In this document: positions 53,644 to 58,891 of the stretch, in pieces
How positions within the stretch are numbered: the first letter of the stretch is position 1
How the letters are laid out: every line of letters starts with the position of its first letter
Assembly: GCF_031624495.1 (NCBI RefSeq)
Contig: NZ_JAMQOP010000001.1
Span: 62,001-126,000 of the forward strand
DNA from: Halogeometricum sp. S1BR25-6
GTDB lineage: Archaea; Halobacteriota; Halobacteria; Halobacteriales; Haloferacaceae
DNA length: 64,000 bases
Direction: 5' to 3'
Notes under the pieces: generated by a model
What the model was told of the DNA's origin: nothing
What the model saw: the letters and a program-made list of their open reading frames with translations, nothing else
Databases searched by the model: none
Translations under genes and position numbers: made by a program

Positions 53644-54414
53644 ATGAGCGAAGCATCAGACTCCACCGTCACGCTCTCGAATCGGTCCGCGGTCGTCATC
53701 GGCGGGACCAGCGGCATCGGACGCGCTATCGCACTGCAGTTCGCCGAGAGCGGCGCCGACGTTGTTGCGACGAGTCGACGGACCGAGGCGGTCGAGGATG
53801 TCGCCGAGGAACTCTCGTCCCGCGGCGCGGAGACGGCGTCCGTGACGTGCGACGTCCGCGACGAGGACTCGATAGAGAATCTCTACGAAACGGCGTCGGA
53901 CGCGATCGGCGACATCGACGTGTTGGTCAACTCCGCGGGGTCGGTGGCGAAGGCCCCGGTCACGGAGATGACGATGGAAGACTGGGAGCGCGACATCGAC
54001 GTCAACCTCACGGGCGTGTTCCGGGCGTGTCAGGTGTTCGGCCGGAACATGTCGTCCGGCAGCATCGTGAACATCTCCTCGATGTCGGCGAACCAAGCAC
54101 GGGAGGAGCGTCCCGCCTACTGCGCCTCGAAGAGCGGCGTGAACGGCCTCACGCGGGCGGCGGCCGCCGACCTCGGACCGGAGGTTCGCGTCAACGCCAT
54201 CGAACCCGGTTTCGTCGACACGCCGCTCGCCGGCGACGCGTTCGCGGAGGGGACCGACTTGCGGGAGGAGATCGACGAGCGGACGCCGCTCGAACGGGTC
54301 GCCGAACCCGACGACATCGCGGGCGCGGCGGTCTACCTCGCGAGCGACGCCGCCTCGTTCACGACGGGCGAGATACTCACCGTCGACGGCGGGTACGACC
54401 GAAGCTCGCTATGA
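53644..54414 (+). CDS. Short-chain dehydrogenase/reductase
   Basis: A 256-residue classical SDR: cofactor loop VIGGTSGIGRAIALQF, SRRTEAVEDVA (Arg suggests NADP), INVLVNSAG-type NSAGSVAKAPV, and the catalytic Ser/Tyr/Lys: SIVNISSMSANQ and AYCASKSGVNGL. The C-terminal DPDDIAGAAVYLASDAASF and LTVDGGYDR are typical of sugar or sugar-acid reductases. Its stop (TGA, 54412-54414) overlaps the convergent zinc ADH by six bases. Probably acts on a sugar-derived alcohol such as gluconate or fructuronate; the substrate is not proven. Confidence 0.9.
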   Translation: MSEASDSTVTLSNRSAVVIGGTSGIGRAIALQFAESGADVVATSRRTEAVEDVAEELSSRGAETASVTCDVRDEDSIENLYETASDAIGDIDVLVNSAGSVAKAPVTEMTMEDWERDIDVNLTGVFRACQVFGRNMSSGSIVNISSMSANQAREERPAYCASKSGVNGLTRAAAADLGPEVRVNAIEPGFVDTPLAGDAFAEGTDLREEIDERTPLERVAEPDDIAGAAVYLASDAASFTTGEILTVDGGYDRSSL

Positions 54415-55449
54415 GTCGTCGCTGACTCGGACGACGCCTTTCACGCCGGCCGGTTCGGCCGCGCGGTCGAACGCAGTCTGTGCGTCGGAGAGCGGATACT
54501 CGAAGCTCACGATGTCGTCTACGTTCAACGCTCCCGCGTCGATTCCCTCGATGGCGTCGGGGTAGGTGCCGCTGAACCGGAACGACCCCTTCAGTTCGTA
54601 CTCCTCGCCGATCATGCCGTTCACGTCGGTGGGGACGGACGCGTCTATCGGGATGCCCACGAAGACGACCGTGCCGCCGCGTCTGACCGCCTCGGTCGTC
54701 GTTCGGATGGCGGTCTCGGCGCCGGAACTCTCCAAGACCACGTCGACGCCGTCGGGGTTGACCTCCTCGCGGACGACGCGAATCGGGTCGTCGGATTCGA
54801 CGTTGACGGCGTAGTCGACGCCGCGCCGCTCCGCCAACTCCAGTTTCTCCGGGACGACGTCCGTCAGGATGGTCGTCTCGGCGCCCCGCCACATGGCGAC
54901 TTCGGAGACGAGTTGGCCGATGGGGCCGCCCCCGGTGACGAGAACGCTGTCCCCTTCCGAGACGTTCCCGCGCTCGCAGGCGTGCATCGCCACGCTCAGC
55001 GGTTCGACGAGCGCTCCCTCGCGAAGCGAGACGCCGTCCGGAAGCGCGTAGAGGAGGTCGGCCGGCCACGCGACGTACTCCGTGAGCGCACCGTCGACGG
55101 GGGGCGACGACATGTACTCCATCTCTTTGCAGAGGTGGTACTCACCCTCGGTCCGACAGTACGAACACTCCCCGCACGGGATTCCCGGTTCGATGGCGAC
55201 TCTGTCGTCCGCGGCGAGGCCCGTCACCGCTTCGCCCGTCTCAACGACCGTACCGGCCGCCTCGTGCCCCAACACGTGCGGGAAGTCGACGACGTTGCCG
55301 CCGTTCTCGCCGTTCAGGTAGTAGTGGATGTCCGAACCACAGATACCGACTCTGTCCACCCGCACCAACGCCTCGTCGGCGCCGACGGTCGGTTTCTCTT
55401 GGTCTGTCAGCGTAAGCGCTCCCACGTCGGATAGCACGCACGTTCGCAT
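54409..55449 (-). CDS. Zinc-dependent alcohol/polyol dehydrogenase
   Basis: A 346-residue medium-chain dehydrogenase of the sorbitol/threonine class. It has VDRVGICGSDIHYYL (catalytic zinc Cys), FPHVLGHEAAGTVVETG (His/Glu), the structural zinc loop PCGECSYCRTEGEYHLCKE with four Cys, and the coenzyme fold VLVTGGGPIGQLVSEVAM. It oxidises sugar alcohols or sugar acids with NAD. The ATG at 55449 starts MRTCVLSDVGALTL; longer in-frame sequence is not conserved. Convergent with the SDR, it may be part of a sugar-catabolic set. Confidence 0.9.
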   Translation of the reverse strand: MRTCVLSDVGALTLTDQEKPTVGADEALVRVDRVGICGSDIHYYLNGENGGNVVDFPHVLGHEAAGTVVETGEAVTGLAADDRVAIEPGIPCGECSYCRTEGEYHLCKEMEYMSSPPVDGALTEYVAWPADLLYALPDGVSLREGALVEPLSVAMHACERGNVSEGDSVLVTGGGPIGQLVSEVAMWRGAETTILTDVVPEKLELAERRGVDYAVNVESDDPIRVVREEVNPDGVDVVLESSGAETAIRTTTEAVRRGGTVVFVGIPIDASVPTDVNGMIGEEYELKGSFRFSGTYPDAIEGIDAGALNVDDIVSFEYPLSDAQTAFDRAAEPAGVKGVVRVSDDS

Positions 55450-55788
55450 ACCATAACGTGGGCGAAACCGAGCATGTATCTTGCGGTGGAGAGGGTGACC
55501 GTCCGGGTCTCCGAGGTGCGAAACTCGATACATTTCCGGCTGGATACGATACTATCTCGTCGCCACTTTCGAGCGTATCGCGCACTCATATCTAGATACG
55601 GTTTCTTACAGCGGATTTTTGTCGACAGGTTTCGCCTTTTGAATTCACTTTTCGTCTTTTCAGGGAAAGAGTAGGCTATTCAGAATCATATGTCGGGAGA
55701 GTTCTGGTCGTCCCCGATATTAGACACGCCGAACGGGGATCGGTCCGTCGCACGCCCTCGAACGCTGTCGTCGCGACCTCGGGGGCGT
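55450..55788. other. Spacer between the zinc ADH and the HTTM gene
   Basis: 339 bases without a plausible gene. Oligo-T-rich DNA (around 55610-55660) lies near the HTTM gene's 3' side. A TATA-like AAGATACATG near 55475 on the minus strand may serve the ADH. Confidence 0.5.
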
Positions 55789-57081
55789 CTACTCCTCCGT
55801 CGCGGACGTGTCGGCGTCTGCGTCCACCGCGCAGGTGAAGTGACGCGACCGGTTCTCGGCGACGTAGCGGTAGACTCGGCGGCCGACGCGGGCGACCGGG
55901 CCGAGGCTCATCACCCACGAGAGCGGAACGAGGACGGGGAACTGTTTCGCGAGCCGTCGAAACGCGTCGTAGCCGGCGTAGGCGTCCTCGCCGTCGAACG
56001 CGTACATCGCGTCCTCGAAGCTCACGTCCTCCCGCCCGCGGTACCGGTCGGGGACGGTGTACTGCGAGTGGAACCGAACCGCGTTCGTGAAGTCGAGCAG
56101 TTTGAACGAGTAGAGACTCCGCGCGCAGAAGTAGCAGTGCTCGTCGTACACGAGGTCGATCGTCTCGTCCTCGTCGGGGCCGAGGTATCGGAAGAGCGAG
56201 TCCCACGGGAGGAGGAGCGCGAGGAAGACGTACTGGTCGAAGAAGAACGGGCCGAGCGAGAGGGCGATGACCGTGTGCATCCCGAGCGTTCCGAGGAGGA
56301 GGGGTGTGATGGGCAACCCGACCAGCACGGCGACGAGCAATCCGAGTTCGAAAACGATGGTTCCCAGCGCGGCGCCCGTCAGGAGAAGCGGATACCGGAG
56401 CATGAACTCGCCGAGTTGCGTCGGCGGGTCCCAGTAGACCAGGGCGGACGTCGCCCACCGTCCCAGCGCGGTCGCGCTGATCCAATCCAAGGAGAGGTCG
56501 GACCCGAAGACGAGTTTCGTCCACGCGGACCCGAAGTAGAGGATTGCGATCGTCAGCAGCACTAACTGGAGGATGCGCATGCTGTGCTCGCCGGTGTTCG
56601 GCGAGCGGAGCGTCTCGTTCAGGTCGTCGATGCTCTCGGAGAGCGCGCGCCGAACGGTGTCGACGTTCAGCCGGTCGGTCTCCGCGTAGAGCCCGAAGAA
56701 AATCAGGAAGAAGCCGGCGATGAACATCGAGTTCACCCGACCGGAGTCGACGTAAGCGTTCATCACCGTCGCCAGGTGCGCCACCAACAGCGCGCTCACC
56801 AGCGCCGTGAGTCGCTGTCTGTACCCGACGAGGAACGCCAGCAGAAACACCACCAGCACGGCCTTCTCGACCGGGAGGTACTGCTGGACGACCGGCGGCT
56901 GAAAGAGCAGATACTCCCCCGCTCCGGGCATCAGGTGCCACTCGTCGATGGCGCCGAAGTCCATCGAACCGAAGTTCCAGAGGAGGTACGTCCCGAAGAT
57001 GACCCGCGCGACGCCGACGTTGATGGGCGAGTCACGCCGCGGGTTGCGGACGTAGTTCACGAACAGTTCGGGGACTCTCAT
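55789..57081 (-). CDS. HTTM/DCC-family membrane protein
   Basis: A 430-residue membrane protein with two parts. Residues 1-300 form an HTTM (horizontally transferred transmembrane) domain with about eight helices (LLWNFGSMDFGAIDEWHL, VVFLLAFLVGYRQRLTALVS, FFLIFFGLYAETDRLN, WTKLVFGSDLSLDWI). HTTM is related to vitamin K gamma-carboxylase. Residues 300-430 form a DCC (DUF393) thioredoxin-like domain with LVYDEHCYFCARSLYSF (DxxCxxC). Its start overlaps the stop of the upstream gene by ATGA, indicating coupling. Function is unknown; the DCC motif suggests redox or quinone chemistry at the membrane. Confidence 0.85.
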   Translation of the reverse strand: MRVPELFVNYVRNPRRDSPINVGVARVIFGTYLLWNFGSMDFGAIDEWHLMPGAGEYLLFQPPVVQQYLPVEKAVLVVFLLAFLVGYRQRLTALVSALLVAHLATVMNAYVDSGRVNSMFIAGFFLIFFGLYAETDRLNVDTVRRALSESIDDLNETLRSPNTGEHSMRILQLVLLTIAILYFGSAWTKLVFGSDLSLDWISATALGRWATSALVYWDPPTQLGEFMLRYPLLLTGAALGTIVFELGLLVAVLVGLPITPLLLGTLGMHTVIALSLGPFFFDQYVFLALLLPWDSLFRYLGPDEDETIDLVYDEHCYFCARSLYSFKLLDFTNAVRFHSQYTVPDRYRGREDVSFEDAMYAFDGEDAYAGYDAFRRLAKQFPVLVPLSWVMSLGPVARVGRRVYRYVAENRSRHFTCAVDADADTSATEE

Positions 57082-57764
57082 AGGCACCGCTCCTCGAAGG
57101 TGTACTCGACGTCGGACGCCGTCGCGTTCGCCGGAAGGCTGACCTCGAAGGCCAGTTCGCGCTCGGTGGAGGTTAGCTCGTAGCCCCCCTCCTCGAAGTG
57201 GAGGTGGAGTGCGTAGACTTTCAGCGTGACGAACTCACCGTATCCGTCCAGTTCGCTCTCGGTCCAGCGGTAGTCCTGTTGGTGCCGCGGGAAGTCCACC
57301 CGCTCTACGAGCGACGGAGCACCCGCTTCGATTCGCTCGCGGTACTCGTGGGACCTGTGCAACAGATACCGCCCCGCGGCCTCCGATTCCTCCCGCGAAC
57401 AGTACGCGAGCGCGCGAGCGACGTCGTCGTTCGGGCTGACGGTCGGAACGACGCGCCGGTCGAGCCGAATCTCCCGCCCTGCGGAGTCCTCGACGTAGAT
57501 GAGGTAGTTCACCTTCTCCTCGGACGGAATACCCGTGAACTTGTGGAGGTCCTCCATCGGTCGGATTTCGTACCCCGACGGCGAGAGGTTGACCAAGAGG
57601 AGACAGGCGAAAAACACCGCCAGATAGCTCGAGCGAACGTACCGGTGTCGGTAGAAGAACGCCGCCGCGAACGTGCCGAGGAAGAAGAGACCGAAGAAGA
57701 ACGGAACCACGAGGTCCTTGTACGCGATGATCGATCGGACGAGGTCGTCCAAAACTAGATACAT
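57078..57764 (-). CDS. Partner membrane/exported protein of the HTTM gene
   Basis: A 228-residue protein opening MYLVLDDLVRSIIAYKDLVV, with two membrane helices (PFFFGLFFLGTFAAAFFY and RSSYLAVFFACLLLVNLS). A long hydrophilic, probably outer domain follows (EEKVNYLIYVEDSAGREIRL, RVVPTVSPNDDVARAL, VTLKVYALHLHFEEGG). It is translated in ATGA overlap with the HTTM/DCC gene. I recognise no family for the outer domain. The fixed pair likely acts as one unit at the cell surface. Start chosen at ATG 57764. Confidence 0.78.
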   Translation of the reverse strand: MYLVLDDLVRSIIAYKDLVVPFFFGLFFLGTFAAAFFYRHRYVRSSYLAVFFACLLLVNLSPSGYEIRPMEDLHKFTGIPSEEKVNYLIYVEDSAGREIRLDRRVVPTVSPNDDVARALAYCSREESEAAGRYLLHRSHEYRERIEAGAPSLVERVDFPRHQQDYRWTESELDGYGEFVTLKVYALHLHFEEGGYELTSTERELAFEVSLPANATASDVEYTFEERCL

Positions 57765-58012: not shown

Positions 58013-58891
58013 ATGTTCAGACGAAAATTTCTCAAAGCGGCGGGCGCGTCGGGCGTAGCCGGTCTCGCCGCCGGTTGTATGGGCGGCGAGCAGAGCGAAG
58101 CGACGGAAGCGGCCGGCGGGACGACCAGCGGCGGAGAGACCGCGACGGAAACTGCGACCGAAACCGAGACGGAAACCACGGAGTCGACGGCTGACGGAAC
58201 CGAGAGCGGTCTCGGCGACGTCACCGGAGAGGTCGGAGACACCCCCGAGGGTCTCGAAGTCGCGTCGCACAACCTGTACGCGGAACAGAGCGCCGTCGGA
58301 CTTCGAGGGACCGTCGAAAACACCAGCGAGGAGGGCTACCGATACGTCCAAGCGCAGGTGACGCTTCAAGACGACCAAGGGGACGTCCTCTACGAGTTCT
58401 TCGACGAGACCGAGCAAGCGGACACGGTCACGCTTCAGGCGGGCGAATCCTGGGACTTCGACGTGCTGTTCGAGGAAGCGGACGACCTGAGCGCGGTCAC
58501 GGCCTACACGGTCGACCTCGCCGCGAGCACGGCGGGAACCGGAACCGAAACCGGATCGGGTTCGCTGGACGACATCACGGGCGAGACCGACCAGCAGGAC
58601 CCCAACCTCGAAATCACGAGCCACGAACTGACGCGCGAGGAGTCGACGACGTACGTCACCGGGACGGTCGAGAACGCCGGGGAGGAGGATATCGAGTCGG
58701 TCGAGGTGTCGGTCACGCTCTACGACGCCGAGGACCAGGAGCTGTTCGACTTCAGAAACACCGTCGAAGAGGAAGAAGACGTCCAGCGACTCGCCCCCGG
58801 CGAGTCGTGGAACTTCCGCGTGCAGTTCCCGGACATCGACATGCAACGTATCAGCCGATACGTTATCAGCGCCGACAGCGACATCGTATAA
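58013..58891 (+). CDS. FxLYD-domain lipoprotein
   Basis: A 292-residue surface lipoprotein. Signal FRRKFLKAAGASGVAGLAAGC, Tat type (RRKFLK) with lipobox AAGC; a Thr/Glu-rich linker (ETATETATETETETTEST) follows, then two FxLYD beta-sandwich domains (approx. 75-165 and 190-290; LTREESTTYVTGTVENAGEE, VSVTLYDAEDQELFDF). FxLYD proteins in halophiles are abundant cell-surface proteins without known enzymatic role. Near neighbours give no clue. Confidence 0.85.
   Translation: MFRRKFLKAAGASGVAGLAAGCMGGEQSEATEAAGGTTSGGETATETATETETETTESTADGTESGLGDVTGEVGDTPEGLEVASHNLYAEQSAVGLRGTVENTSEEGYRYVQAQVTLQDDQGDVLYEFFDETEQADTVTLQAGESWDFDVLFEEADDLSAVTAYTVDLAASTAGTGTETGSGSLDDITGETDQQDPNLEITSHELTREESTTYVTGTVENAGEEDIESVEVSVTLYDAEDQELFDFRNTVEEEEDVQRLAPGESWNFRVQFPDIDMQRISRYVISADSDIV

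Follow-up and report, generated by a model that had tools for sequence, protein, structure and literature searches.

The window, which is the whole stretch of 64,000 nucleotides of Halogeometricum sp. S1BR25-6 analysed here, carries two overlapping genes on its reverse strand (Table 1). The downstream gene encodes an HTTM-DCC membrane protein (P0001) and the upstream gene a smaller membrane protein, here called the partner (P0002). The genome carrying the window (G000) has 4.5 Mb. Existing annotation of such a pair goes no further than 'DUF393 domain-containing protein' and 'hypothetical protein'. The original prediction had described an HTTM/DCC gene overlapped through ATGA by an upstream two-helix gene, with a DCC domain containing a CxxC motif fused to the HTTM part. 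Both open reading frames were found in this arrangement, and the DCC1-like family PF04134 matched P0001 with an E-value of 1e-12 (49.7 bits at a cut-off of 27.8), covering positions 1-111 of the 113 of the model, with the motif CYFC at residues 316-319. The protein thus shares the CxxC motif and a match over nearly the full domain with the DCC1-like family and differs from it by the fusion to an HTTM core. A scan for sigma-70-type promoters was set aside as inapplicable to archaeal promoters.

Table 1. Features of the gene pair in the window (residue numbers refer to the respective protein)
Feature	Position	Strand	Remark
P0001, HTTM-DCC protein, 430 aa	55789..57081	-	ATG at 57081
P0001, N-terminal membrane domain, predicted VKGC fold			residues ~12-301
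P0001, C-terminal DCC domain			residues 310-415
P0002, partner, 228 aa	57078..57764	-	ATG at 57764
P0002, membrane helices			residues 16-36 and 41-60, then outer domain
ATGA overlap, P0002 stop / P0001 start	57078..57081	-	
Lys189 codon of P0001	56515..56517	-	computed from ATG 57081, read in the sequence
CxxC of the DCC domain of P0001 (Cys316-Tyr-Phe-Cys319)	56125..56136	-	computed from ATG 57081, read in the sequence

Two further observations were made close to the pair. The gene at 58013-58891 on the forward strand, divergent from the pair, encodes a product in which NCBIfam models recognise a twin-arginine signal and two FxLYD-type stretches; it is weakly similar to the archaellum stator ArlF (E 7e-4). 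Moreover, an SDR gene (53644-54414, forward strand) and a zinc alcohol dehydrogenase gene (54409-55533, reverse strand) overlap tail-to-tail by the six bases 54409-54414.

Distribution and gene order of the pair

Homologues of the partner were present in 12 of 147 genomes and homologues of the HTTM-DCC protein in 14, with all 12 falling within the 14 (hypergeometric p 7e-16, a statistic that ignores relatedness). The association of the two proteins exceeds chance. In the HTTM-DCC genomes without a partner, the match was weak and about 80 residues long (G017, E 9e-4) or belonged to a shorter HTTM protein of 289 aa from which DCC is absent (G030). For the comparison of gene order 19 pair loci were used, 14 of them from G000 and 11 other genomes (three in G065) and the others from a Natronococcus contig, a Halobaculum halobium plasmid, G369 (two copies) and G424; the loci of G369 and G424 were found via the partner search and are not independent evidence of co-occurrence. 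The partner gene lies upstream of the HTTM gene at every one of the 19 loci, and with the start codons chosen in the analysis the two genes overlap by 1-11 bases at 18 of them. The exception is L040, where a DDE transposase gene is located between partner and HTTM-DCC gene. The expectation that the partner recurs beside HTTM genes in other genomes was therefore borne out for the HTTM-DCC type, in 12 of 14 genomes and with constant order, but does not extend to HTTM genes generally, the common one-piece type having a helix and an ectodomain of its own.

The pair is patchily distributed: a partner search in a phylum-wide sample found it in 5 of 392 genomes, with identical gene order in all. Between the two proteins, pairwise distances show a correlation of 0.88 (15 pairs), a value that shared descent alone could explain. 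In the comparison of 14 of the 19 loci, no third gene cluster was common to more than three of six genera, and no conserved substrate gene was found near the pair; gene calling relied on a home-made script, which a short or divergent precursor could escape. No description of the pair was found among the matches listed from the open-licence literature for the topics HTTM, DCC/DUF393, SdpB-family and archaeal/bacterial VKGC.

Genes associated with sugar transfer were observed beside some of the loci. The DDE transposase gene of L040 (7773-8765), which splits one of the three copies in G065, is accompanied by asparagine synthase-like and glycosyltransferase genes, and in Natronococcus a sugar-transfer-associated ATP-grasp gene (PF14397) is located near the pair (L033, 432-1532). 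In G369, too, PF14397 occurs near the pair, together with a TupA-like ATP-grasp and a family 2 glycosyltransferase (genes at L085 9246-10352, 10466-11392 and 1845-2810). These neighbours hint at a surface-polysaccharide setting in these three loci.

The HTTM core and the DCC domain of P0001

The Pfam family HTTM (PF05090) did not match any of the 15 HTTM-DCC family members, even at E<1. A fragment of a decayed copy at L085 (8202-8843) scored 27.2 bits at a cut-off of 27.7. The relationship of the HTTM part to vitamin K carboxylase, which had been part of the original prediction, was instead established by fold and by profile-profile comparison. The AlphaFold2 model of P0001 has a pLDDT of 82 and a pTM of 0.81; when it was compared by VIA-align, the 16 best rows were all human GGCX (Z 11.0-15.2 over 191-265 residues) and the next row reached 6.6, and with Foldseek GGCX took ranks 1-13 (E 0.05-0.26). 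The HTTM-DCC profile aligned with that of one-piece haloarchaeal HTTM proteins over 247 columns (prob 97, E 5e-11), and a domain-split version of this comparison gave prob 96.9, the reversed query 0.1. Direct sequence searches of the PDB with the HTTM-DCC and partner profiles gave nothing better than E 0.15. The membrane half of P0001 almost certainly has the VKGC/HTTM fold, and because fold and profile agree in this the protein is placed in the HTTM/VKGC superfamily, yet outside the Pfam family as drawn.

The one-piece proteins used for comparison are about 500 aa long and were gathered by their match to PF05090, which lies over the cut-off in 81 of 145 genomes of the class Halobacteria; one is encoded elsewhere in the genome that carries the window. 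They match GGCX in the PDB by sequence (E 6e-4) and share with the pair the core, an invariant lysine and the order of C-terminal helix (here a hydrophobic stretch) and ectodomain. Unlike the pair they are single chains, and the three that were scanned all match PF05090 directly and have no DCC match. Their invariant lysine (K177, 23 of 23 proteins) stands opposite GGCX K218, with residue numbers derived by reading the printed alignment. In a two-step alignment via these proteins, Lys189 of P0001, invariant in all 15 HTTM-DCC members, aligns with the same GGCX residue. Moreover, an aromatic residue (W/F/Y) occupies the position of GGCX W223 in all 15 members, and the family has two invariant aspartates, D282 and D294.

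According to PMC12589487 and PMC9146348, vitamin K hydroquinone is deprotonated in GGCX by K218, and H160 has its function in the Glu pocket. No conserved histidine was found at the H160 position in either the HTTM-DCC or the one-piece family (mapped by hand on printed alignments), which makes classical Glu carboxylation unlikely. A true gamma-glutamyl carboxylase encoded in two pieces, which the GGCX fold and the K218-aligned lysine would suit, is accordingly very improbable, given the missing histidine in both archaeal families and the fact that no substrate was found.

With regard to topology, lysine and arginine counts come to 6.1 for the loop that precedes helix 5 and to 0-0.5 for loops 1 and 3, but to 2.1 for the outer loop behind helix 5. 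Judged from the sequence, these counts broadly fit an eight-helix core with its N-terminus inside, a cytosolic DCC domain and a partner domain on the outside. The DCC domain would then sit where the one-piece proteins continue into their last helix, i.e. after helix 8.

PF04134 was matched by 14 of the 15 HTTM-DCC members (E<1), and both CxxC cysteines are kept in 14 of the 15. At L046 the HTTM part and the partner are kept and both DCC cysteines are lost, and at L085 (G369) a DCC-less HTTM gene directly follows the partner. The order at L085 (6449-9124) is partner, DCC-less HTTM gene, transposase, and a second HTTM half with a DCC remnant; this arrangement is a degraded duplicate or a decayed HTTM-DCC gene. 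The DCC domain can thus be lost.

These losses bear on a reading in which the pair is in essence a thiol-redox device, in which DCC is the active part and passes electrons between cytosolic thiols and the quinone pool of the membrane, HTTM binds quinone and anchors the device, and the partner senses on the outer side. The retention of CxxC in nearly all members speaks for it, as does the fact that 10 of the 12 genomes with the pair, among them G000, have no match to VKOR (PF07884, E<=0.001). The two loci that keep HTTM and partner with a damaged or missing DCC domain argue against it, and VKOR proved about equally frequent without the pair: the counts are 2 among the 12 genomes with the pair (including one match under the cut-off) and 27 among the other 135, which shows no association. 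Since VKOR is similarly rare where the pair is absent, its distribution lends no support to a replacement of VKOR by DCC, and the device reading appears improbable. A coupling of DCC to quinone or thiol recycling is a rather doubtful proposition.

A side observation concerns the one-piece proteins. At G000:C1:1208630-1209421 (L088, outside the window), the one-piece HTTM gene of the genome lies immediately downstream of a gene for a pyridine nucleotide-disulphide oxidoreductase (PF07992), and the same order was seen in two of four neighbourhoods (L088-L091), namely L088 and L091 (G080). From this neighbour, a thiol link is possible for one-piece HTTM proteins, too.

The partner and the C-terminal part of one-piece HTTM proteins

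The partner had been described as a two-helix protein with a large unrecognised domain. The two helices and the large outer domain were recovered, and P0002 gave nothing better than E 0.13 in Pfam and no match in NCBIfam; the designation as unknown does not hold to the same extent, as the protein is probably a detached VKGC-type piece. The weak hits of partners, DUF4131 and PTS IIC among them, probably reflect membrane helices and were discounted. The model of P0002 is of moderate quality (pLDDT 76, pTM 0.57) and comprises two main membrane helices and a mixed ectodomain. Foldseek returned nothing usable for it (best E 0.36). When the Foldseek candidates were aligned by VIA-align, the highest ectodomain rows were GGCX residues ~400-499 (Z 2.3-3.2), with unrelated ectodomain rows reaching up to 2.5; this weak match of a predicted model proves nothing by itself.

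The one-piece proteins for the profile comparison were taken from 31 HTTM loci (L001 and L055-L084) among the best matches, of which 27 were kept (L001, L061, L067 and L071 dropped); alignment A3 further leaves out L056, L070, L079 and L082. Against 23 full-length one-piece proteins, the partner profile gave prob 31, E 5e-4 and a score of 36.0, with partner columns 46-213 aligned in order to one-piece columns 333-492, which hold the C-terminal helix and the ectodomain. This score was reached by none of 120 ectodomain shuffles (best 25.2), and the reversed target gave prob 0.3. A profile built from 19 partners performed similarly (prob 39, E 3e-4), and helix 2 of the partner together with its ectodomain scored 35.2, a value that none of 100 shuffles attained (best 22.0). 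By itself, the ectodomain was borderline against the full-length proteins, with scores of 26.0 (1 of 100 shuffles) or 25.4 (0 of 100) and alignment to the correct region; against a target cut down to the ectodomain it scored 16.8, inside the range of 100 shuffles (maximum 18.7, mean 11.6). In the version with 27 proteins the partner gave prob 8.7 when the target was the C-terminal part and 0.7 when it was this cut ectodomain; two controls were run for that version, each with 1 shuffle in 150 attaining the score. When a too strict filter left five one-piece proteins, prob was 0.4. These profile comparisons point to a modest homology between partner and one-piece ectodomain.

In GGCX, according to PMC12589487, TM9 is followed by a membrane-embedded linker and the lumenal propeptide-binding domain. 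The partner is probably the counterpart of this last helix and lumenal domain of a VKGC-type protein, detached and separately encoded.

A weak match to DUF5819 (PF19136), under the cut-off at a best E of 5.7e-5, was seen in the ectodomain of archaeal one-piece HTTM proteins, and none was found among 15 partners. Genes for DUF5819 proteins neighbour HTTM genes in actinobacteria.

A second two-gene system with an HTTM protein has to be weighed here. In Bacillus subtilis, SdpA and SdpB are jointly needed for SdpC processing, according to PMC6818787. An SdpAB-like maturation pair, in which an SdpB-like HTTM protein and an SdpA-like small subunit process a secreted peptide with DCC aiding disulfide chemistry, would account for the similar layout of two separate proteins acting together, and of four haloarchaeal one-piece HTTM proteins scanned, three matched the SdpB model TIGR04033, at best with 38 bits (E 1.4e-9) and so well short of the cut-off of 178. 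The same model, however, was matched neither by P0001 nor by the HTTM-DCC protein of L086 or the DCC-less HTTM protein of L085. None of the 15 partners matched SdpA in Pfam at E<1, and SdpA (PF17418) was found in 0 of 145 genomes of the class at E<=0.1. With no third gene conserved across genera and no SdpC-like neighbour found among the genes called in the 14 loci compared, and with DCC as an addition to the Bacillus layout, such a maturation pair is unlikely.

A candidate two-subunit VKGC-type enzyme

Considering the pair as a whole, it resembles VKGC in its core and SdpA-SdpB in its layout and equals neither, because a counterpart of H160 is missing, the protein is not one chain and an SdpA match was not obtained. 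The likeness to GGCX/VKGC comprises the helical-bundle fold of the model, the lysine aligned with K218, the aromatic residue at the W223 position and, weakly, the lumenal domain of GGCX as source of the highest ectodomain rows of the partner. GGCX differs in being one chain, whereas core and lumenal part of the pair are distributed over two genes and P0001 ends in DCC, placed after helix 8.

The explanation that is, on balance, narrowly favoured is that the products of both genes are subunits of a single VKGC/GGCX-like membrane enzyme that carries DCC on its cytosolic side. In P0001, the HTTM half would form an eight-helix, quinone-binding catalytic core, in which Lys189 may stand in for the catalytic base K218. 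The partner would supply those parts that GGCX has on its single chain, namely helix 9, the linker embedded in the membrane and the lumenal domain for substrate binding, and the thioredoxin-like DCC domain, predicted to be cytosolic, would fill the slot after helix 8 in P0001.

Haloarchaea use menaquinone. In the proposed enzyme, K189 would deprotonate menaquinol, which with O2 could give rise to a strong base or oxidant; its target would be a substrate, either secreted or in the membrane, that the partner binds. The DCC domain might handle electrons of thiols in connection with the recycling of quinone or with regulation. Such quinol-driven chemistry in the HTTM-DCC pair is a tentative proposal of a little less than even standing. 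The full version of it, a self-contained two-subunit archaeal relative of VKGC that combines quinol superbase chemistry with a built-in DCC replacing a separate VKOR and carries out a reaction other than Glu carboxylation on an exported substrate, is unlikely to be correct in all its parts. Of the suggested undescribed membrane redox or lipid-modifying unit, the redox unit is plausible, while no result points to lipid modification.

HTTM proteins are widespread in the haloarchaea (over the cut-off in 81 of the 145 genomes of the class), and we know of no archaeal HTTM protein with a known reaction. The pair would offer a natural split, in which the catalytic core is set apart from the substrate-binding domain and each can be separately deleted, swapped or purified. 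Moreover, the fusion to DCC hints at a connection between thiols and quinone chemistry, comparable to the one that VKOR gives in animals. If the two-subunit explanation is true, the vague annotation as DUF393 and hypothetical proteins would become a testable enzyme.
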